Assembly (NCBI RefSeq): GCF_019139675.1
Contig: NZ_CP077077.1
Coordinates: 3,596,001 to 3,660,000, forward strand
Origin: Pseudomonas maumuensis
GTDB taxonomy: Bacteria; Pseudomonadota; Gammaproteobacteria; Pseudomonadales; Pseudomonadaceae
Direction of reading: 5' to 3'
Length of the DNA stretch: 64,000 nucleotides
The notes under the pieces were generated by a model. The model was not told where the DNA came from. It searched no databases and saw only the letters and a list, made by a program, of their open reading frames with translations. This document shows positions 19,622 to 28,324 of this stretch, one piece after another (the first letter of the stretch is position 1; every line of letters starts with the position of its first letter). A program made the position numbers and the translations under genes.

Positions 19622-19936
19622 GTTCAACTCCCTGAAGAAAAGACCTGCAAAGCTACAAGAAGAAAGCTGCAAGCAAAAGTCAGAAATACTTTATTGACTG
19701 ACCGTTCAATCAAGAAAAGTTAGCATAAACGTTTCCGCACCACCCCTCCCTGGCGCTCGGCAGCCCCTTCACGCCGACACGACCCCCTCTCCGTGGCACT
19801 TCAGCAAAGGCCTGCACCGCACCGTCCGGGGCGCGCCGCGCAGTGGACAACCCCACGATCGGCTGCTTGTATCTATGACTGCAAGCGGCGACAAGTCGTA
19901 CAACTTCGTCCAGGGAATCGAACGAGGAACTACACG
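19622..19936. other. 315-base intergenic region between PACE and wecB-like genes
   Basis: This divergent region should contain the promoters of both flanking units. The left third is AT-rich and includes the dyad at 19694-19713. I see no convincing open frame, terminator or -35/-10 pair for the polysaccharide genes. An open frame running into wecB from 19793 lacks a ribosome site and is not counted as coding. Confidence 0.6.
19694..19713. promoter_or_regulatory. Candidate TetR-type operator before the PACE gene
   Basis: TTGACTGACCGTTCAATCAA is an imperfect dyad (TTGA...TCAA outer arms, TGAC/GTTCA inner arms) of the size and sequence style bound by TetR/AcrR-family repressors. It lies upstream of the PACE pump, whose homologues are inducible. 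The matching repressor is not in the immediate neighbourhood. Confidence 0.4.
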
Positions 19937-21091
19937 ATGGCTTACACCGTGATGATGGTTTTCGGTACCCGCCCCGAAGCGATCAAGATGGCCCCGTTGG
20001 CCCGCGTCCTGCGCGACTGGCCCGAGGTCGACCTGCAGATCTGCTCCACCGGCCAGCACCGCGAAATGCTCGAACAAGTTCTCACCGCCTTTGGCCTCGA
20101 GGTCGACCAGGACCTGCAGGTGATGACCCAGAACCAGACCCTCAACGGCCTGGCCCGCGACCTGCTGGACAAGCTCGACCAAGCCTATGAACAGGTCAAG
20201 CCCGATATCGTCCTGGTCCACGGCGACACCACCACCAGCTTCATCGCCTCGCTGGCCGCCTTCCACCGCCACATTCCCATCGGCCACGTCGAGGCCGGCC
20301 TGCGCACCGGCAACCTGCAGCAGCCCTGGCCCGAGGAGGCCAACCGGCGCTTGACCGGCGTACTCGCCGACTTGCACTTCACCCCCACCCGCGACTCCGA
20401 CGCCAACCTGATCCGCGAAGGCGTGCCGCCCGAGCACATCGAGGTCACCGGCAACACGGTGATCGACGCCCTGTTGTGGATGCGCGACAAGCTGAACAAG
20501 GACAACTGGCGTCCCGCCGCCGATTCCCCGCTCAATGTGCTGCGCGACGACCAGCGCATGGTGCTGATCACCGGCCACCGCCGAGAGAACTTCGGTAGTG
20601 GCTTCGAACGCATCTGCCTGGCCCTGGCCGAGCTGGCCCTGCGCTACCCGGACGTGCAGTTCCTCTACCCGGTGCATCTCAACCCACAGGTCCAGCACGC
20701 GGTGTACAGCGTGCTCTCGGGCCGCGACAACATCCACCTGGTCGCGCCCCAGGACTACCCGCACTTCGTCTGGCTGATGAACCGCGCCCACATCATCCTC
20801 ACCGACTCCGGTGGCGTGCAGGAAGAGGCCCCGGCGCTGGGCAAGCCGGTGCTGGTGCTGCGCAAGGTCACCGAGCGCCCCGCGGTGCTCAAGGGCGGCA
20901 CGGTCAAGCTGGTCGGCACGCTCACCGAGCGCATCGTCCAGGAGACCAGCCAGCTGCTCGATGACCCGGTTGCCTATGAGCGCATGGCCCAGGTCTACAC
21001 CCCCTTCGGCGACGGCCACGCCAGCGAGCGCATTGCCGAACGCCTGAGCCGCTGGTTCGCCGAGCAATCCGCCGCACGGGACAACGCATGA
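19937..21091 (+). CDS. wecB: UDP-N-acetylglucosamine 2-epimerase (non-hydrolysing, WecB/NfrC-like)
   Basis: A 384-residue cytosolic enzyme that interconverts UDP-GlcNAc and UDP-ManNAc. Signature segments: FGTRPEAIKMAPLARVL (9-25), VLVHGDTTTSF, GHVEAGLRTG, PWPEEANRRL, ITGHRRENFG and LTDSGGVQEEAPALGKPVLVLR. Its stop overlaps the start of the NfrB-like synthase (ATGA), so it is dedicated to that system. In E. coli the same enzyme is called NfrC because its loss blocks phage N4 adsorption; it feeds ManNAc into the NfrB glycan. ATG 19937 has GAGGAA upstream. The symbol is by function; a paralogue elsewhere in the genome is possible. Confidence 0.92.
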   Translation: MAYTVMMVFGTRPEAIKMAPLARVLRDWPEVDLQICSTGQHREMLEQVLTAFGLEVDQDLQVMTQNQTLNGLARDLLDKLDQAYEQVKPDIVLVHGDTTTSFIASLAAFHRHIPIGHVEAGLRTGNLQQPWPEEANRRLTGVLADLHFTPTRDSDANLIREGVPPEHIEVTGNTVIDALLWMRDKLNKDNWRPAADSPLNVLRDDQRMVLITGHRRENFGSGFERICLALAELALRYPDVQFLYPVHLNPQVQHAVYSVLSGRDNIHLVAPQDYPHFVWLMNRAHIILTDSGGVQEEAPALGKPVLVLRKVTERPAVLKGGTVKLVGTLTERIVQETSQLLDDPVAYERMAQVYTPFGDGHASERIAERLSRWFAEQSAARDNA

Positions 21092-23262
21092 GCCTGGCCT
21101 TCATCGATTTCCTCACTTACGTCCTGTTCGGCCTGAAGATCCTTGCCATCGTCCTGGCGACCTTGATGTTCCTGCTGGGCCTGGACGATCTGTTCATCGA
21201 CCTGTGCTACTGGGGCCGCAAGCTGATCCGACGTTTCCGCATCTACGACAAGTTCGACAAGGCCGACGAAAAGCGCCTGTTCGAAGTGCCGGAAAAGCCC
21301 CTGGCAATCATGGTGCCGGCCTGGAACGAGGTCGGCGTGGTCGGCGAGATGGCGCGCCTGGCCGCCTCGACCATCGACTACGAGAACTACCAGATATTCG
21401 TCGGCACCTACCCCAACGACCCGCAGACCCAGGCTGACGTCGACGCCGTGTGCCTGCACTACCCCAACGTGCATAAGGTGGTCTGCGCCCGCCCCGGACC
21501 CACCAGCAAGGCCGACTGCCTGAACAACATCATCGATGCCATCCTGCGCTTCCAACAGGACGCGCGTATCGAGTTCGCCGGGTTCATCCTGCATGACGCC
21601 GAAGACGTCATCTCGCCCATGGAATTGCGCCTGTTCAACTACCTGCTGCCGAACAAGGACATGATCCAGATCCCGGTGTATCCCTATGCACCGGAGTGGA
21701 AGGGCTTCACCGCCGGCCACTATGTCGACGAGTTCGCCGAGAACCACGGCAAGGACGTCATCGTCCGCGAGGCGCTCACCGGCCAGGTGCCCAGCGCCGG
21801 GGTCGGCACCTGCTTCAGCCGCCGGGCGATCAGCGCGCTGCTGGAGGACGGCGACGGCATCGCCTTCGATGTACAGAGCCTCACCGAGGACTACGACATC
21901 GGCTTCCGCCTCAAGCAGAAAGGCATGAAGTGCATCTTCGCCCGCTATTCCATCACCGATCCTGCGCTGGCCCTCAAGCAGGAGTGGCGCCCCGGCATGA
22001 GCCGCGAGTTCGCCCAGGTGATCTGCGTACGCGAGCATTTCCCCCGTGACTGGCAGCACGCCATCCGCCAGAAATCGCGGTGGATCGTCGGCATCGTGTT
22101 CCAGGGCACCAGCAACCTCGGCTGGAGCCGCAAAGGCGCGCTCAACTACTTCCTCTGGCGCGACCGCCGCGGGCTGTTCGCCTATCTGTTGAGCTTCCTG
22201 GTCAACCTGTTGCTGCTGGTACTGCTGGCCATGTGGCTGGTCACGGTGATCGCGCCGGAGTCGTGGCGGTTCATGTCGATCCTAAGCGACAGCACGCTGC
22301 TCAGCACCTTGCTGTGGCTCAACGGCCTGCTACTGTTCAACCGCCTGTTCCAGCGGTTCTGGTTCGTCACCCGCTACTACGGCGTCTTCGAAGGCCTGCT
22401 CTCGGCACCACGGATGATGTGGAGCAACTTCGTCAACTTCTTCGCCAACCTGCGCGCCCTGCGTCAGGTGATGGAGATGGGCGATTCGCGGCGGGTGGCC
22501 TGGGACAAGACCACCCACGAGTTCCCTGCCCTCGCCGCGCCGGCACGCACCCCGCTGGGCCATCGCCTGGTGGACAAAGGCCTGATCAGCGAAGAACAGC
22601 TGGAGCAGGCCATCACCAGCCCGGTAAGGCGGCGCCTCGGGCGCGAGCTGCTGCTGCGCGGCTGGCTCACCAGCGAACAGCTGGTCGAGACCCTGGCCGA
22701 GCAACTGGACCTGCCCTGGGCACCGCTCAATCCGTTCAAGATCGCCCCGGCGCTGATCGCCAAGCTGCCGCGCAAGCTCGCCACCCACTACGGCGTGCTG
22801 CCGGTGGACGAAGACGGCGACACCCTGGTGCTGGCCAGCGAAAGCCCGGTCAGCCAGGTCTCGCTGGGGGTCATCAGCCGCCAGCTCAAACGCCCGGTGC
22901 GTACACGCCTGGCGCCGCAGGGGCGCGTGACCCTGGGCCTGCGCTACCACTACCCGAGCCCTTGGCAGAAACCCGAAACCCGCGAAATGCTCGAGGTACT
23001 CGAACGCCACCAGGACGATGCCGCGCTGCTGGAGAGCGTCGGCACCCACCAGGTGATGCTTGGTTCGCTGCTGCAGGTGCGCGGCATGGTACCGGTGGCC
23101 CTGTTCAACCAGGCCCTGATCGACTTCAACCCTGAGCAGCAGAGCCTGGGCGAGCACCTGATCGCCCGCGGCATCATCACCGAGGAGGTGTTGCAGCAAG
23201 CCCTCGCCGAGCAGGCCAGCGAACAGCAGGCCGCCTACGACCTGACCCGGGAGGTGGCATGA
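21088..23262 (+). CDS. nfrB: NfrB-like family 2 glycosyltransferase with two MshEN c-di-GMP modules
   Basis: A 724-residue inner-membrane polysaccharide synthase resembling E. coli NfrB (phage N4 adsorption protein B). A hydrophobic helix at about 12-35 precedes a GT-2 domain (70-340) with D170-A-E-D173, T266-E-D-Y-D270 and the processivity motif QKSRW (328-332). Two further membrane spans lie at about 362-385 and 403-425. The C-terminal third holds two pairs of 24-residue MshEN motifs: 489-512 plus 516-539, and 657-680 plus 686-709. Each has the RLGxxLxxxG...L pattern (for example RLGRELLLRGWLTSEQL) that binds c-di-GMP in MshE. It overlaps wecB before it and nfrA after it by four bases each. 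Confidence 0.9.
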   Translation: MSLAFIDFLTYVLFGLKILAIVLATLMFLLGLDDLFIDLCYWGRKLIRRFRIYDKFDKADEKRLFEVPEKPLAIMVPAWNEVGVVGEMARLAASTIDYENYQIFVGTYPNDPQTQADVDAVCLHYPNVHKVVCARPGPTSKADCLNNIIDAILRFQQDARIEFAGFILHDAEDVISPMELRLFNYLLPNKDMIQIPVYPYAPEWKGFTAGHYVDEFAENHGKDVIVREALTGQVPSAGVGTCFSRRAISALLEDGDGIAFDVQSLTEDYDIGFRLKQKGMKCIFARYSITDPALALKQEWRPGMSREFAQVICVREHFPRDWQHAIRQKSRWIVGIVFQGTSNLGWSRKGALNYFLWRDRRGLFAYLLSFLVNLLLLVLLAMWLVTVIAPESWRFMSILSDSTLLSTLLWLNGLLLFNRLFQRFWFVTRYYGVFEGLLSAPRMMWSNFVNFFANLRALRQVMEMGDSRRVAWDKTTHEFPALAAPARTPLGHRLVDKGLISEEQLEQAITSPVRRRLGRELLLRGWLTSEQLVETLAEQLDLPWAPLNPFKIAPALIAKLPRKLATHYGVLPVDEDGDTLVLASESPVSQVSLGVISRQLKRPVRTRLAPQGRVTLGLRYHYPSPWQKPETREMLEVLERHQDDAALLESVGTHQVMLGSLLQVRGMVPVALFNQALIDFNPEQQSLGEHLIARGIITEEVLQQALAEQASEQQAAYDLTREVA

Positions 23263-26261
23263 CGCCCCGTCTTTCCCTGACCATCGTCAGCCTGTTGCTG
23301 TGTTCTTCCGCCCTGGCCGCGCCGACCAAGCCGATGACCGACTTCCAGCGCTTCACCAGCTACCCCTTCATGGAGCGTGGCTATCGGGAAGCGCAGAAGG
23401 ACAACTGGGCCGAGGTCGAGCGCCTGACCCGCCATGTGCTGGGGCGCGTACCGAACAACAACGAGGCCCGCGCCCTGCTGGCCGAAGCCCTGGCCCATCA
23501 ACGGCGCTACAAGGAAGCCCAGGCCATCGCCGAAGACCTCGACGACAATCCCGAACACGCCGACGCCCTGCTGGAACTGCGCCTGACCTGGATCGAACAC
23601 GACCCGCCGGCCGCAAGCCAAGTGGAGGCCTGGCTCGCCGACAGCCAGGGCCAGCAGCGCGTACGCCTGTGGCAGGCCTACAGCGTCAGCCTGGCCAAGT
23701 TCGGTGGCGCGGCCAAGGCCCTGGAATGGCTCAACCAGTTGCCGGTACGCGACGATGGCATGGTGCTGCGCATGACCCGCGCCAACTTCGCCGAGCGACT
23801 ACGCAACTGGGGAGAGACCATCGACCAGCTGCAACCCCTGGCCGAGAAGGGCCAACTGCCACCCGAGGATTGGCAGCGCCTGGCCAATGCCTATATTCAG
23901 CAGGTCGATGAAAAGGGCCTGAACAAACTCCTGGCCAGCGCACCGTCCCAGGAAGCGGCGACCCACGCCCGCCTGGCCATGGCCAACCGCGCCATCGCCA
24001 TGGGCCACAACCAGCAGGCCGAGCGTTGGCTGCAGAGCCTGCCCGCCGGGCAACTGCAGCATCCCGAACAGCGCCAGCAACTGTGGGAACTGGCCCGTGA
24101 AGGCGATGACGCACCGCTGGTGCGCCAGCTGAGCAACGAACTGCATCGCCCCTGCTTGGAGACCGTCGACTGGCTGTCCCACAAGGACCTGAAGCTGGCC
24201 CGCGAACAGCTCGGCCAGTGCCAGGCCAGCGAAAATCCGCGCAGCTATGCCATCCTCAGGCAGCGCCTGTACGGCGAGCCCGCTCAGCCACCGCAGCCAC
24301 GCACGGCGGCGCAGTGGGAGCAACGCTACCGACAGACCGGCGATCTTACCGCCCTGGAACAAGCCAGCTTCATGCTGCTCGAAAGCGGCCAGAGCGAGCG
24401 CGCCCGGCAGCTGCTCGACAACGCCTACGACCGTCGCCAAGGCAGGCTGACGCCTTCGCTGCTGCAACGCCTGGGCAACCTCTATGCGCGCAACGACGGT
24501 CCGCTGGACGGTCCACGCATGCTTGCCCTGGTGCCACGGGTCGATGCCGCCACCCGTGGCCAGCTACTGGCCCGCCTGGCCGAAGCCGGCCAATGCGAGG
24601 CCGTGCGCAAGGCCATCCCGGCCACCCCGGTCGAAGCCGGGCAGTATCGCGCCCTGGGGCGCTGCGCCACGCCTGATCAGCCAGGCGAAGCGGTGGTCTA
24701 CTACCAAGCCGCCGAACGCCTGAGCGATAGCGGCAGTCGCCTGCCTTTGGCCTACGCCCTGGAAGCCTCCGGCGACTCCCAGGCGGCGCTGCCGATCTGG
24801 AACAGCCTGCCGGCCAGCGCCTGGACCGACAATGCGCGCCTGACCGCCGCCCGTGGCGCGCTGAACGCCGGTGACGCCAACGCCGCCCGCCGCCACTGGG
24901 ATGCGGCAGCGCACCAGAGTGCCGACGACTGGGCGCTGGGCGCCGCCATTGCCCAGCGCCAGGGCGACCCGCAGCAGGCCCTGGCTTTCCAGCGCGAAGC
25001 GCTGCGTCATGCCCCGCGCGCCGATCACTACTACGCAGCCGCCGGCACCGCCCAGCAGGCCGGCGACAGCGCCCAGAGCAGCGCCTGGCTGGCCGAGGCC
25101 GTGCGCCTGGCGCCGGACCAGCCGCGTTACCGCGCCGACTATGGCATGCGCCTGGCGGGTTCGGCGGACAAGCAGCAACGCCGCCAGTCCATACCCTACC
25201 TGGAGCGCGCCACCCGCGACTTCCCCGAGGACTACCGCCTGGGCGAGACCCTGGCCCTGCGCTACGACGAGGTCGAGGACAGTGCCTCGGCCCGCCGCGA
25301 GCTGCGCCGGGTCCTAGACGTGGAGCGCAACCTGGTCGACGGCGACGACGAGTACGGCAGCCTGGAGGCGCGCAAGTACCGCCAGCGCCGCGCCCATGAA
25401 GCCCTGTCGCGCCGCGACAGCATCACCCTGGCCAGCACCTGGTCGCCCGCCGGCACCTCGACCAACGACAAATTCCTCGACAACGGCGAACGCAGCGGCA
25501 GCTCGCGCCGCGCCCGCTCGCAGAACGTGCAGCTGGCGATGTGGGACCACGCCCTGGGCGAGGAGCCCAGCCGCAATGGCAGCACCCTGTCGGTCTACGG
25601 CCGCGTGCTGTTCGGTGGCCAGAGCCGCACCGACTACGCGCAGAGCATGGGCACCGGTGTAGGCCTGCGCTACAAGCCGCTCGGCCAGGCCAACCTCAAC
25701 CTGTACGCCGAGCTGTACCACCAGCGCCAGATCGACAGCACGCACTACAGCGGCCTGAGCCTGGGCGAGCTGCTCAGCCCGGCCAAGGTCGGCGGCAACT
25801 GGGGCGACCTGCGTCACAACGCCGAATCGAGCAACGACCTGCTGCTGCGCGCCACTGCTTCGTTCCTGGATCAGGGCAAGTACCGCAACGACTGGCGTAT
25901 CGACGAGGACGACTGGGACGAGCGCTTCCTCTACCTCGACGCCGCCTGGTGGACCCGTGCCGGCGACCATGCCTGGCTGTCGCGCTTCCAGCAGGGCCAT
26001 GCGTGGAAACTGCCCAGCCAGTCGCCGCAGACGATCATGCCCTACGGCTTCCTCGAGTTTTCCAGCCAGGACCCGAGCAACGACTGGCGCCAGGACGCCC
26101 GCGCCGGGGTCGGCGTGCGCTGGCAGTGGTGGTTCGACGACGACCGCTACAACGCCTACCGCGGCTCGCTGAAAGTACGCGCCGAGTACCAGCAGGCACT
26201 GGGCGGCAACCTCTACGAACGCGGCAACGGCGTGCTGCTGGGTGTGGAGATGAACTTCTGA
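23259..26261 (+). CDS. nfrA: NfrA-like outer-membrane exporter/phage receptor with TPR domain
   Basis: A 1000-residue protein, close in length to E. coli NfrA (about 990). It has a signal peptide (MTPRLSLTIVSLLLCSSALA). A long periplasmic TPR-like superhelix spans about 35-700 (for example NNEARALLAEALAHQRRYKEAQAIAEDL, PLAYALEASGDSQAALPIWNSL). The C-terminal part (about 730-1000) is aromatic-rich alternating strand sequence ending in VEMNF, a terminal Phe suited to BAM insertion. The predicted role is passage of the NfrB-made glycan across the outer membrane; in E. coli NfrA is also needed for phage N4 adsorption. It overlaps nfrB by four bases, and the next gene's ATG overlaps its stop. Confidence 0.88.
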   Translation: MTPRLSLTIVSLLLCSSALAAPTKPMTDFQRFTSYPFMERGYREAQKDNWAEVERLTRHVLGRVPNNNEARALLAEALAHQRRYKEAQAIAEDLDDNPEHADALLELRLTWIEHDPPAASQVEAWLADSQGQQRVRLWQAYSVSLAKFGGAAKALEWLNQLPVRDDGMVLRMTRANFAERLRNWGETIDQLQPLAEKGQLPPEDWQRLANAYIQQVDEKGLNKLLASAPSQEAATHARLAMANRAIAMGHNQQAERWLQSLPAGQLQHPEQRQQLWELAREGDDAPLVRQLSNELHRPCLETVDWLSHKDLKLAREQLGQCQASENPRSYAILRQRLYGEPAQPPQPRTAAQWEQRYRQTGDLTALEQASFMLLESGQSERARQLLDNAYDRRQGRLTPSLLQRLGNLYARNDGPLDGPRMLALVPRVDAATRGQLLARLAEAGQCEAVRKAIPATPVEAGQYRALGRCATPDQPGEAVVYYQAAERLSDSGSRLPLAYALEASGDSQAALPIWNSLPASAWTDNARLTAARGALNAGDANAARRHWDAAAHQSADDWALGAAIAQRQGDPQQALAFQREALRHAPRADHYYAAAGTAQQAGDSAQSSAWLAEAVRLAPDQPRYRADYGMRLAGSADKQQRRQSIPYLERATRDFPEDYRLGETLALRYDEVEDSASARRELRRVLDVERNLVDGDDEYGSLEARKYRQRRAHEALSRRDSITLASTWSPAGTSTNDKFLDNGERSGSSRRARSQNVQLAMWDHALGEEPSRNGSTLSVYGRVLFGGQSRTDYAQSMGTGVGLRYKPLGQANLNLYAELYHQRQIDSTHYSGLSLGELLSPAKVGGNWGDLRHNAESSNDLLLRATASFLDQGKYRNDWRIDEDDWDERFLYLDAAWWTRAGDHAWLSRFQQGHAWKLPSQSPQTIMPYGFLEFSSQDPSNDWRQDARAGVGVRWQWWFDDDRYNAYRGSLKVRAEYQQALGGNLYERGNGVLLGVEMNF

Positions 26262-27100
26262 TGCGTAGCTTCCTGGCGCTCTGCCTGCTGGTCCTGTGGC
26301 TACCCGCCCAGGCCGACCAGCGCCTGTTCTACCAGCCGCTCAACCGTGACGCGAACGTCACCCCGGCGCAGTGGCAAAACCTGTGGCGAGCCACCGTGGC
26401 CCAGGGCGGCAAGACCCTGATCGTGCAGTGGAGCGCCTACGGCGACAGCGACTTCGGCGGCGCCCGGGGCTGGCTCGCCGACAGCCTGCGCGAGGCGCGG
26501 GCCCAAGGTCTGGAACTGGTGCTGGGCCTGTACATGGATCCGGCCTACTACCAGCGCCTCGAACAGCTCGACGGCGAAGGCCTGAACAGTTATTTCAAGG
26601 CGCAACTGGGGCGCTCGCTCACCCAGTACCAACAGCTCAAGGCCGAATGGGCGCTGCCGGTGGCCGGCTGGTACCTGCCCATGGAACTGGACGACCTGCA
26701 CTTTCGCGACCCGGCCAGGCGCGATGCGCTGCACACGCAACTGCAGGCTTTCAACCGGCAACTGGACAAACCCCTGCATATCAGCGCGTTCAGCGCCGGC
26801 CAGCTGTCGCCGCGGGTCAATGGTGCGTGGCTGGAGCAGTTGGCCAGCCTTGGCCTGAACGTCTGGTGGCAGGACGGCGCCGGCACGGGCCGCCTGACGC
26901 CGCTGGTACGCCAAGGCTATGAACAGGCCCTGCCCTGCCGGGTGGGTATCGTGCGCGAAGCATTTCGCCAGGTCAGCAAGCCTGGCCAACCGTTCCGCGC
27001 CGAACCTGCGCAGCCAGCGCTGAGCGGAGGCTGCCACGCCGAAGCCGTGTTCGCCCTGCGCTATCGGCCCTGGGCCAGAGGGACGCTTTCCAGGGATTGA
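26261..27100 (+). CDS. DUF4434-like periplasmic protein of the Nfr locus
   Basis: A 279-residue exported protein with a signal peptide (MRSFLALCLLVLWLPAQA). The mature part resembles DUF4434, a TIM-barrel, glycoside-hydrolase-like fold: WQNLWRATVAQGGKTLIVQWSAYGD, then LELVLGLYMDPAYYQRL, GWYLPMELDDLHF with the acidic pair ELDD, and LGLNVWWQDGAGTG. The likely acidic catalytic residues are the Glu/Asp in PMELDD and the Asp in WWQDG (inference). The start ATG overlaps the nfrA stop (TGATG), so it is part of the operon. E. coli ybcH occupies the same place beside nfrA. It may trim or modify the glycan. Confidence 0.72.
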   Translation: MRSFLALCLLVLWLPAQADQRLFYQPLNRDANVTPAQWQNLWRATVAQGGKTLIVQWSAYGDSDFGGARGWLADSLREARAQGLELVLGLYMDPAYYQRLEQLDGEGLNSYFKAQLGRSLTQYQQLKAEWALPVAGWYLPMELDDLHFRDPARRDALHTQLQAFNRQLDKPLHISAFSAGQLSPRVNGAWLEQLASLGLNVWWQDGAGTGRLTPLVRQGYEQALPCRVGIVREAFRQVSKPGQPFRAEPAQPALSGGCHAEAVFALRYRPWARGTLSRD

Positions 27101-27123
27101 AACCAGCCGCCTGAACGAATCCC

Positions 27124-27192
27124 ATCGTGGGGCAAGCCCGCGCCCATGAATACCAGCACCCAACCCTTTTGGGAGCGGGCTTGCCCCGCGAT
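27124..27192. repeat. REP-type inverted pair (BIME-like) 2
   Basis: ATCGTGGGGCAAGCCCGC at 27124-27141 and GCGGGCTTGCCCCGCGAT at 27175-27192 are inverted copies with one mismatch. They share the core of the pair at 9686-9758. The pair separates the DUF4434-like gene from the diguanylate cyclase gene, and could process or attenuate the long upstream transcript. Confidence 0.75.
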
Positions 27193-27235
27193 AGGGCCGG
27201 CAAAAACAGCACAATCGCCGAGGGCATCCTCCAGC

Positions 27236-28324
27236 ATGTACAAAACCCTCGAAGCCCACATCCGCCAACAGGACGTCCCCGCCGCCCTGCGCGCCGAGTT
27301 CCGCCAGCACGAATTCGAGGCCATGCGCCGCTTCTGCCTGCTGATCTTCTGCATCGGCATCGCCATCTGGCTGGTCTTCGACCTGATCGTCAGCTACCTC
27401 GGCGGCCAGGGCTTCACCTGGCTATCCGGGGTGTTCATCGCCCTGCTGTGCAGCCTCACCGTGGTCCTCGGCTTCACCCGCAGGAGCCAGCATTTCGACG
27501 TGCTCAACCTGCTGTTCGTGGCGGTGATCACCCTGGCCATGCGCCTGGTGATCGAGGGCATCCCCATCGCCCTGCGCCCGGTATGGCTGGTGCTCGGGGT
27601 CTCCACCGTGCTGTACAGCGTGTCGGTGCTGCCGGTACGGCGCTGGTCGTTCTTCTGCGCCATGGGCGTCACCTGGATCATGCTCAATCCCTTCTTCCAC
27701 ACTCGTATCGAAGCCCTCGAGCTCGAAGGCGCGATGCTGATCAGCTACGCGGTATGCCTCAGCGGCCTGGTGATCTACAGCTACCTGCGCATCCGCCAGG
27801 CCAAGATGCACAACTTCTACCTGACCAAGGTGCTGCTGGAGCAGGCCTATATCGACGCGCTGACCGACATCCCTAACCGTCGCTCGTTCATGGCCAAGGC
27901 CGAACAGCAGCTGCAACAGGCCGGCGAGCAGTACCTGGCGATGATCGACATCGACAACTTCAAGCAGGTCAACGACCGCTTCGGCCATGACATCGGCGAC
28001 GAGGTACTCAAGCGCGTGGCGGCGCACATCAAGGCGGCGATGATCGGCTACGAGATCGCCCGGCTGGGCGGCGAGGAGTTCGCGATCTTCTTCCAGGGGC
28101 TGGACGAGGCCGGCGCCGAACAACAGGTAGCGGCGCTGTGCCGGCGAGTGCGCGAGGACCTCGGGGCGCACCCGGTGACCATCAGCATCGGCCTGGCCCG
28201 GGTCGACTGCGGCGATACCTTGAGCATGGCGCTGATCCGGGCGGACCAGGCGCTGTACGAGGCCAAGCACACGGGCAAGGACCGTTTCGTCCGGTGGACT
28301 AACCGGCTGGCAAGCGAATCCTGA
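27236..28324 (+). CDS. Membrane diguanylate cyclase next to the Nfr locus
   Basis: A 362-residue protein. Six hydrophobic helices lie at about 33-185, then a GGDEF domain at about 200-360. Active-site motifs: DALTDIPNRR (208-216), DIDNFKQVNDRFGHDIGDE (238-256) and GGEEF (278-282). There is no RxxD inhibitory site before GGEEF (MIGY in its place). The predicted activity is synthesis of c-di-GMP from GTP at the inner membrane. Position and orientation make it the likely local activator of the c-di-GMP-binding NfrB-like synthase (inference). ATG 27236 follows the REP pair. Its end overlaps the convergent sensor kinase by 26 bases. Confidence 0.87.
   Translation: MYKTLEAHIRQQDVPAALRAEFRQHEFEAMRRFCLLIFCIGIAIWLVFDLIVSYLGGQGFTWLSGVFIALLCSLTVVLGFTRRSQHFDVLNLLFVAVITLAMRLVIEGIPIALRPVWLVLGVSTVLYSVSVLPVRRWSFFCAMGVTWIMLNPFFHTRIEALELEGAMLISYAVCLSGLVIYSYLRIRQAKMHNFYLTKVLLEQAYIDALTDIPNRRSFMAKAEQQLQQAGEQYLAMIDIDNFKQVNDRFGHDIGDEVLKRVAAHIKAAMIGYEIARLGGEEFAIFFQGLDEAGAEQQVAALCRRVREDLGAHPVTISIGLARVDCGDTLSMALIRADQALYEAKHTGKDRFVRWTNRLASES

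Follow-up and report, generated by a model that had tools for sequence, protein, structure and literature searches.

Results

Gene content and organization of the locus

The window analyzed here is a 64,000-nt stretch of the Pseudomonas maumuensis genome (assembly GCF_019139675.1, contig NZ_CP077077.1, positions 3,596,001-3,660,000), and coordinates below are window positions unless another locus is named. It carries wecB, nfrB, nfrA, ybcH, and a diguanylate cyclase gene, all on the plus strand, and the positions that an earlier, sequence-only reading had assigned to these five genes were confirmed. A PACE-type efflux gene (BTP domain) lies upstream of the locus, and genes for a histidine kinase, a response regulator, and an HlyD-type protein lie downstream. 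The features are as follows.

19842-19936, plus strand: conserved stretch preceding wecB, probably its promoter region, with GAGGA as ribosome-binding site (alignment of 18 PACE-site loci)
19937-21091, plus strand: wecB, UDP-GlcNAc 2-epimerase, putative UDP-ManNAc supply (TIGR00236, 468 bits; cut-off 210)
21088-23262, plus strand: nfrB, family-2 glycosyltransferase with a C-terminal MshEN c-di-GMP domain (NF008411, 1252 bits; cut-off 1170)
23259-26261, plus strand: nfrA, TPR and outer-membrane C-terminal domain, exporter/phage N4 receptor homolog (NF007302, 1312 bits; cut-off 1223)
within 23259-26261, plus strand: C-terminus of nfrA, matching NfrA_C (PF13283)
26261-27100, plus strand: ybcH (DUF4434), predicted TIM barrel with a hydrophobic N-terminus; candidate glycoside hydrolase (NF007404, 410 bits; cut-off 344)
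27121-27197, no strand assigned: inverted REP pair separating ybcH from the cyclase gene (long stem and genome-wide matches)
27236-28324, plus strand: membrane diguanylate cyclase, GGDEF (PF00990, 119 bits; cut-off 23.8)

All four operon proteins, WecB, NfrB, NfrA, and YbcH, passed the cut-offs of the NCBI curated equivalogs. The overlaps ATGA, ATGA, and TGATG that join wecB, nfrB, nfrA, and ybcH are real and recur in relatives, with a spacing of -4 between wecB and nfrB in 45 of 45 loci, -4 between nfrB and nfrA in 52 of 54, and -1 between nfrA and ybcH in 52 of 53. In the window, the cyclase gene stands outside this overlapping chain, 135 bp after ybcH and behind the inverted REP pair. The locus is a real, complete, conserved, and previously described system, and ybcH, at first taken for an addition to it, is the ordinary third gene of the E. 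coli nfrBA-ybcH operon.

The block upstream of wecB (19842-19936) is conserved throughout the 18 aligned PACE-site loci, and scans for sigma-70, FliA-like, and RpoN-like sites, the last run without a shuffle control, found no recognizable sigma factor motif in it. The single sigma-70-like site returned by a scan of the whole stretch lies elsewhere, with none upstream of wecB. Control by FliA, as in E. coli, was considered and dropped: the best match upstream of wecB scored 8/13, and scores of at least 9 were reached by 160 of 200 shuffles.

NfrB and NfrA

NfrB shares 51% identity with its E. coli counterpart, with which it aligns at the DAED, TED, and QKSRW motifs and at the PLG of the first MshEN motif. 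Three E. coli transferase residues, D169, D267, and W330, and two in the MshEN domain, L490 and G491, are all kept. In E. coli NfrB, changes at D169, D267, and W330 abolish N4 plating, the effect of L490A is moderate, and the change at G491 is the strongest among those made in the MshEN domain (PMC8669469). The C-terminus of the window protein matches both MshEN (PF05157, E = 8.7e-13) and the solved MshE domain 5htl (E = 2.4e-11), so that the MshEN domain proposed by the sequence-only reading holds at the sequence level, in line with the NF008411 assignment. The hallmarks of an Nfr/NGR system are thereby present: a GT2 synthase with DxD, TED, and QxxRW motifs and an MshEN domain, an adjoining and overlapping gene for a TPR/outer-membrane NfrA protein, and a WecB-type epimerase that is encoded in the genome and linked (468 bits with TIGR00236). 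At the extreme end of NfrB (window 23038-23259) we observed a second, partial MshE-type motif, which, in a scan of this part by itself, scored 30.4 bits, below the cut-off of 38.

Distribution among Pseudomonas and named nfrB loci

In 298 Pseudomonas genomes, a sample of the genus searched at E up to 1e-60, an NfrB-like protein was found in 94, four of which have two. Full-length NfrB orthologs with 76-100% identity are present in 54 of the 298. The other NfrB-like proteins comprise a class of 36 with about 40% identity, a shorter class of 6, one partial match (G076), and one 143-residue fragment (G226), the reduction of nfrB to this length being the reason why G226 is left out of the 54. Among the 54 orthologous loci, wecB overlaps nfrB in 45, ybcH is found in 53 (it is missing in G258), and the cyclase gene is found in 47. 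This last count is made up of 46 genomes with the cyclase gene at the locus and of G170, in which the locus is truncated by a contig end, the cyclase gene being found on a different contig next to the same two-component genes.

The two further synthase classes, whose annotation comes from one locus each (L112 for the 36 proteins and L092 for the 6), are found in other Pseudomonas genomes as wecB with BcsB-like, NfrB-like, NfrA-like, and AlgX-type gene(s). L112 (6274-16975) has one AlgX-type gene and a divergent DUF4434-like gene; L092 (5795-16097) has two AlgX-type genes and a shorter synthase with one MshE-type motif.

A wider set of 80 named nfrB loci, taken from an E. coli-led NfrB alignment and extending past Pseudomonas, includes several short contigs. 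In the fetched flanks, wecB was found in 54 of these loci (four of the matches on the opposite strand), nfrA in 78, ybcH in 72, and a GGDEF gene in 20. Those without a nearby wecB are largely enterobacterial, plus Pseudidiomarina and a few others. Linkage of wecB to nfrB is not unusual.

The linked epimerase

WecB is 54% identical to E. coli WecB. In a tree built by a quick method that gave long-branch warnings, the 45 linked epimerases form one clade (SH-aLRT 100) together with those of eight named Pseudomonas loci and two at nfrB-less sites; the named loci are restricted to L149-L210, and sequences with a stop or with fewer than 300 matched residues were left out, except L111. The linked Pseudomonas copies are thus set apart, on this quick tree, from the unlinked and mostly wecC-linked wecB genes. 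Because the operon-linked epimerases cluster in this way, the grouping with O-antigen wecB that the sequence-only reading had named as contrary to its proposal was not encountered.

At nine loci wecB is not linked to nfrB. All nine genomes encode an unlinked WecB, which lies beside a UDP-ManNAc dehydrogenase gene in seven; no such neighbor was seen in G157 and G057. These nine proteins form a separate clade in the epimerase tree. Since the nine wecB-less loci are also one clade on the cyclase tree, we treat them as about one evolutionary event and gave up counting them as nine independent tests. An Epimerase_2 match was found in 54 of 54 nfrB genomes versus 133 of 244 others (lists matched by hand; Fisher test, 6e-13, with kinship not removed), and the linked wecB is the sole match in 22 of the 45 genomes that have it.

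The window genome has a second epimerase (L111), which adjoins a gene whose best model is FnlA, below the cut-off of that model, and an RmlD-type reductase gene. It is 30% identical to the linked copy and is probably an enzyme of the FucNAc pathway. The idea that it renders the linked wecB redundant was dropped on the strength of this low identity and of the FnlA-like and RmlD-type neighbors. Since L111 also passes TIGR00236 (241.6 bits versus a cut-off of 210), it is from its FnlA-like neighbor and its 30% identity that we infer the linked WecB to be the source of UDP-ManNAc. An epimerase carried by the operon would tie the synthase to this precursor.

YbcH is a predicted TIM-barrel protein

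The AlphaFold2 model of YbcH is a TIM barrel (pLDDT 93.9). In glycosidases of clan GH-A, the catalytic glutamates stand where strands 4 and 7 end. In the model, E142 lies in the strand 136-144 and E233 is the last residue of the strand 229-233, which are strands 4 and 7 in the numbering made for this analysis, so that the model combines the fold of the clan with glutamates on the expected strands. Neither residue varies in an alignment of 81 sequences, made up of the window protein and of 80 among 240 listed proteins that were hand-picked as near full length, and both are retained in a distant DUF4434-like protein of another synthase class. Based on this model, we tentatively propose, at somewhat less than even likelihood, that YbcH is a retaining glycosidase of the clan GH-A type that would use E142 and E233 to cut the NfrB-made ManNAc glycan in the periplasm; YbcH may accordingly trim the Nfr glycan.

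An idle scaffold without catalytic activity, which would leave the operon devoid of a glycan-cutting step, is a comparably plausible reading that likewise falls a little short of an even chance. It follows PMC8669469, where E. coli YbcH is described as a putative scaffold that N4 plating does not require and on which the motility effect depends just in part, and is consistent with the absence of ybcH from one of the 54 loci. The structural searches divide between the two readings: after a shared top match, 4h41, Foldseek returned mostly aldolases and other non-glycosidase barrels, which suits a scaffold, whereas VIA-align returned largely glycosidases and some flavin reductases. Against a scaffold stand the barrel itself, the position and invariance of the two glutamates, and their retention in the distant DUF4434-like protein. 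By sequence, YbcH has no relatives in the PDB at E up to 1.

In the literature searched we found no glycosidase reading of YbcH, no mention of DUF4434, and nothing relevant on YbcH and exopolysaccharide beyond PMC8669469; the word "hydrolase" is absent from the main text of that paper. If YbcH is a glycosidase, it would offer a tool to cut and identify the NGR polymer. Alginate, PNAG, and cellulose systems combine a synthase, an exporter, and a hydrolase. The Nfr system would, under the same condition, gain this layout.

The diguanylate cyclase is a frequent partner of nfr

The cyclase has a GGEEF site after about five hydrophobic segments predicted from hydropathy, and Pfam gave no named sensor domain in its N-terminal part. 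The inhibitory site of GGDEF cyclases is an RxxD motif with a usual place in the protein, and no RxxD stands at that place here. With the DgcJ equivalog NF040885, the protein scored 76.8 bits, below the cut-off of 500. The 136 nt that precede its gene fold into a long stem (-62.7 kcal/mol), and a 20-base piece of a REP arm has 110 matches in the genome with 0-1 mismatch versus none for the reversed control. The in-frame ATG at 27146, which precedes the start used here, lies between the arms of the REP pair and is an unlikely start for the cyclase.

The cyclase gene was found in 47 of 54 nfrB genomes versus 16 of 244 others (Fisher test, 2.5e-33, with kinship not removed). Two main chromosomal settings of the locus, the PACE site of the window and a site with a TerC gene, differ in how the gene is placed: its distance from ybcH ranges from 15 to 347 nt in 27 loci at the PACE site, and at the TerC site all 14 of the 14 cyclase-bearing loci show an overlap of exactly 17 nt between the two genes. 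In G162 the cyclase gene is apparently broken near its start. On the cyclase tree, from which L099 was left out owing to a stop in its sequence, some cyclase-only sequences are nested with strong support inside nfr-bearing groups, and the cyclase-only state accounts for five label changes, three of them at the PACE/kinase site and the other two at the TerC site. At six loci (L096, L098, L099, L100, L103, and L105), a member of this cyclase family was found close to an RND efflux gene and without any nfr gene.

Since the cyclase also occurs without nfr and its tree shows five label changes, it is not strictly dedicated to Nfr. We consider it a frequent partner of nfr and not a fixed part of the system. 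The sequence-only reading had seen all functions bundled at the locus: precursor enzyme, c-di-GMP-binding synthase, and exporter are indeed together and conserved, and the cyclase as a dedicated component is just partly supported. A stronger version, in which the cyclase is an independent neighbor and the system proper, wecB-nfrB-nfrA-ybcH, is fed by the general c-di-GMP pool or by another cyclase (compare DgcJ in E. coli), appears somewhat unlikely. It would account for the seven nfrB genomes without the cyclase, for the 16 genomes that have it without an intact nfrB ortholog, for its persistence at both sites where nfr is missing, for the six loci beside an RND efflux gene, and for the REP-containing gap in the window, but it sits poorly with the co-occurrence of the two genes, even if kinship contributes to that figure, and with the exact overlap at every cyclase-bearing TerC-site locus.

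Chromosomal sites and loss of the locus

A PACE gene is present in the fetched stretch of 29 of the 54 loci, 26 of which also have the kinase gene; TerC and/or solute-binding-protein genes are beside 18, and neither neighbor pair was seen in seven. In six fetched genomes, the PACE gene directly adjoins the kinase gene with no locus gene between them. Several genomes show intermediate states. With the same PACE and kinase neighbors, G089 (L088, 5821-8161) keeps wecB and the cyclase gene and lacks nfrB-nfrA-ybcH. Beside PACE and/or kinase genes, the cyclase gene alone remains in G193 and G076, and wecB alone in G015. The remnant in G226 (L087, 6001-7464), which likewise adjoins one or both of these neighbors, consists of the first 143 residues of nfrB, ybcH from residue 15, and a 3' piece of the cyclase gene. 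In four genomes, the TerC site holds the cyclase gene but no nfr genes. These partial states and the cyclase tree fit repeated loss, the tree alone not fixing the direction of change.

The portability suggested by the sequence-only reading is weakly supported because the locus is found repeatedly at two chromosomal sites and the partial remnants suggest loss. It is improbable that the operon represents a capsule cassette that is mobile and was acquired recently: its patchy presence (54 of 298 genomes), the six loci where PACE and kinase genes meet without it, and the existence of two main sites plus seven loci with neither pair of neighbors would suit such a cassette, but in the window the genes that directly flank it encode a PACE efflux protein and a two-component pair and are not mobility genes, the same neighbors recur across wide divergence, and the remnants in G089, G015, G193, and G226 argue for loss. 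The natural partial states (wecB with cyclase, cyclase only, wecB only, and shortened nfrB) provide strains in which to ask whether phage pressure removes the glycan and, likewise, what the cyclase does alone.

Discussion

The locus, whose gene content, order, overlaps, family membership, catalytic and c-di-GMP motifs, conservation, and predicted YbcH fold were seen directly, is very probably a Pseudomonas version of the known Nfr/NGR system for synthase-dependent exopolysaccharide production. We propose that WecB would convert UDP-GlcNAc to UDP-ManNAc and that, by analogy with the E. coli work from which substrate, c-di-GMP activation, and export are taken over, NfrB would polymerize ManNAc under c-di-GMP control and NfrA would let the glycan pass through the outer membrane. 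For this activation the residues are conserved, and the biochemistry is that of the E. coli protein. YbcH, as a periplasmic TIM-barrel protein, would probably trim or clear the glycan, possibly by hydrolysis. The downstream cyclase could raise c-di-GMP close to NfrB and thus may act locally; the genes may be cotranscribed, and the glycan may serve as a phage receptor in this host.

The functional part of the sequence-only reading was mostly right, and its claim that the locus had not been described is wrong. The arrangement is already known from work published in 2021. Junkermeier and Hengge (PMC8669469) noted that wecB is directly linked to nfrB in species without a wecB of another pathway, with Pseudomonas soli SJ10 as an example, and that a GGDEF gene is associated with the nfr operon "in most pseudomonads," where it may add a fourth gene to nfrBA-ybcH. 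Sellner et al. (PMC8669472) proposed the ManNAc glycan NGR and reported nfrA-nfrB-wecB clusters in Achromobacter. Neither paper, in the portions available, settled the chemistry of the glycan that phage N4 uses as receptor. Beyond them, a literature search (NfrB, Pseudomonas, wecB, or exopolysaccharide) found by title no paper centered on the pseudomonad nfr locus; a study of the Pseudomonas aeruginosa phage Ab09 (PMC6467409) merely cites the E. coli Nfr work, in the portions available.

The E. coli K-12 system, nfrBA-ybcH with wecB (nfrC) and dgcJ, which provides the NGR glycan and phage N4 receptor (PMC8669469 and PMC8669472), shares with the window locus the order nfrB-nfrA-ybcH, the catalytic and MshEN residues of NfrB, and a WecB that is 54% identical. 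In contrast to E. coli, both wecB and a cyclase gene are adjacent in the window, and this cyclase is not DgcJ and has no Pfam sensor domain. The closest likeness is to the nfr loci of Pseudomonas soli SJ10 and other pseudomonads, where wecB is directly linked to nfrB and a GGDEF gene is linked in most cases, and from which the available portions of PMC8669469 establish no difference. Extended nfr clusters with BcsB-like and acetyltransferase genes, described in Achromobacter (PMC8669472) and Simplicispira (PMC8669469), likewise combine wecB with NfrB-like and NfrA-like genes; unlike them, the window locus has no BcsB/AlgX gene, and clusters of that extended kind occur in other Pseudomonas genomes, as at L112 and L092.
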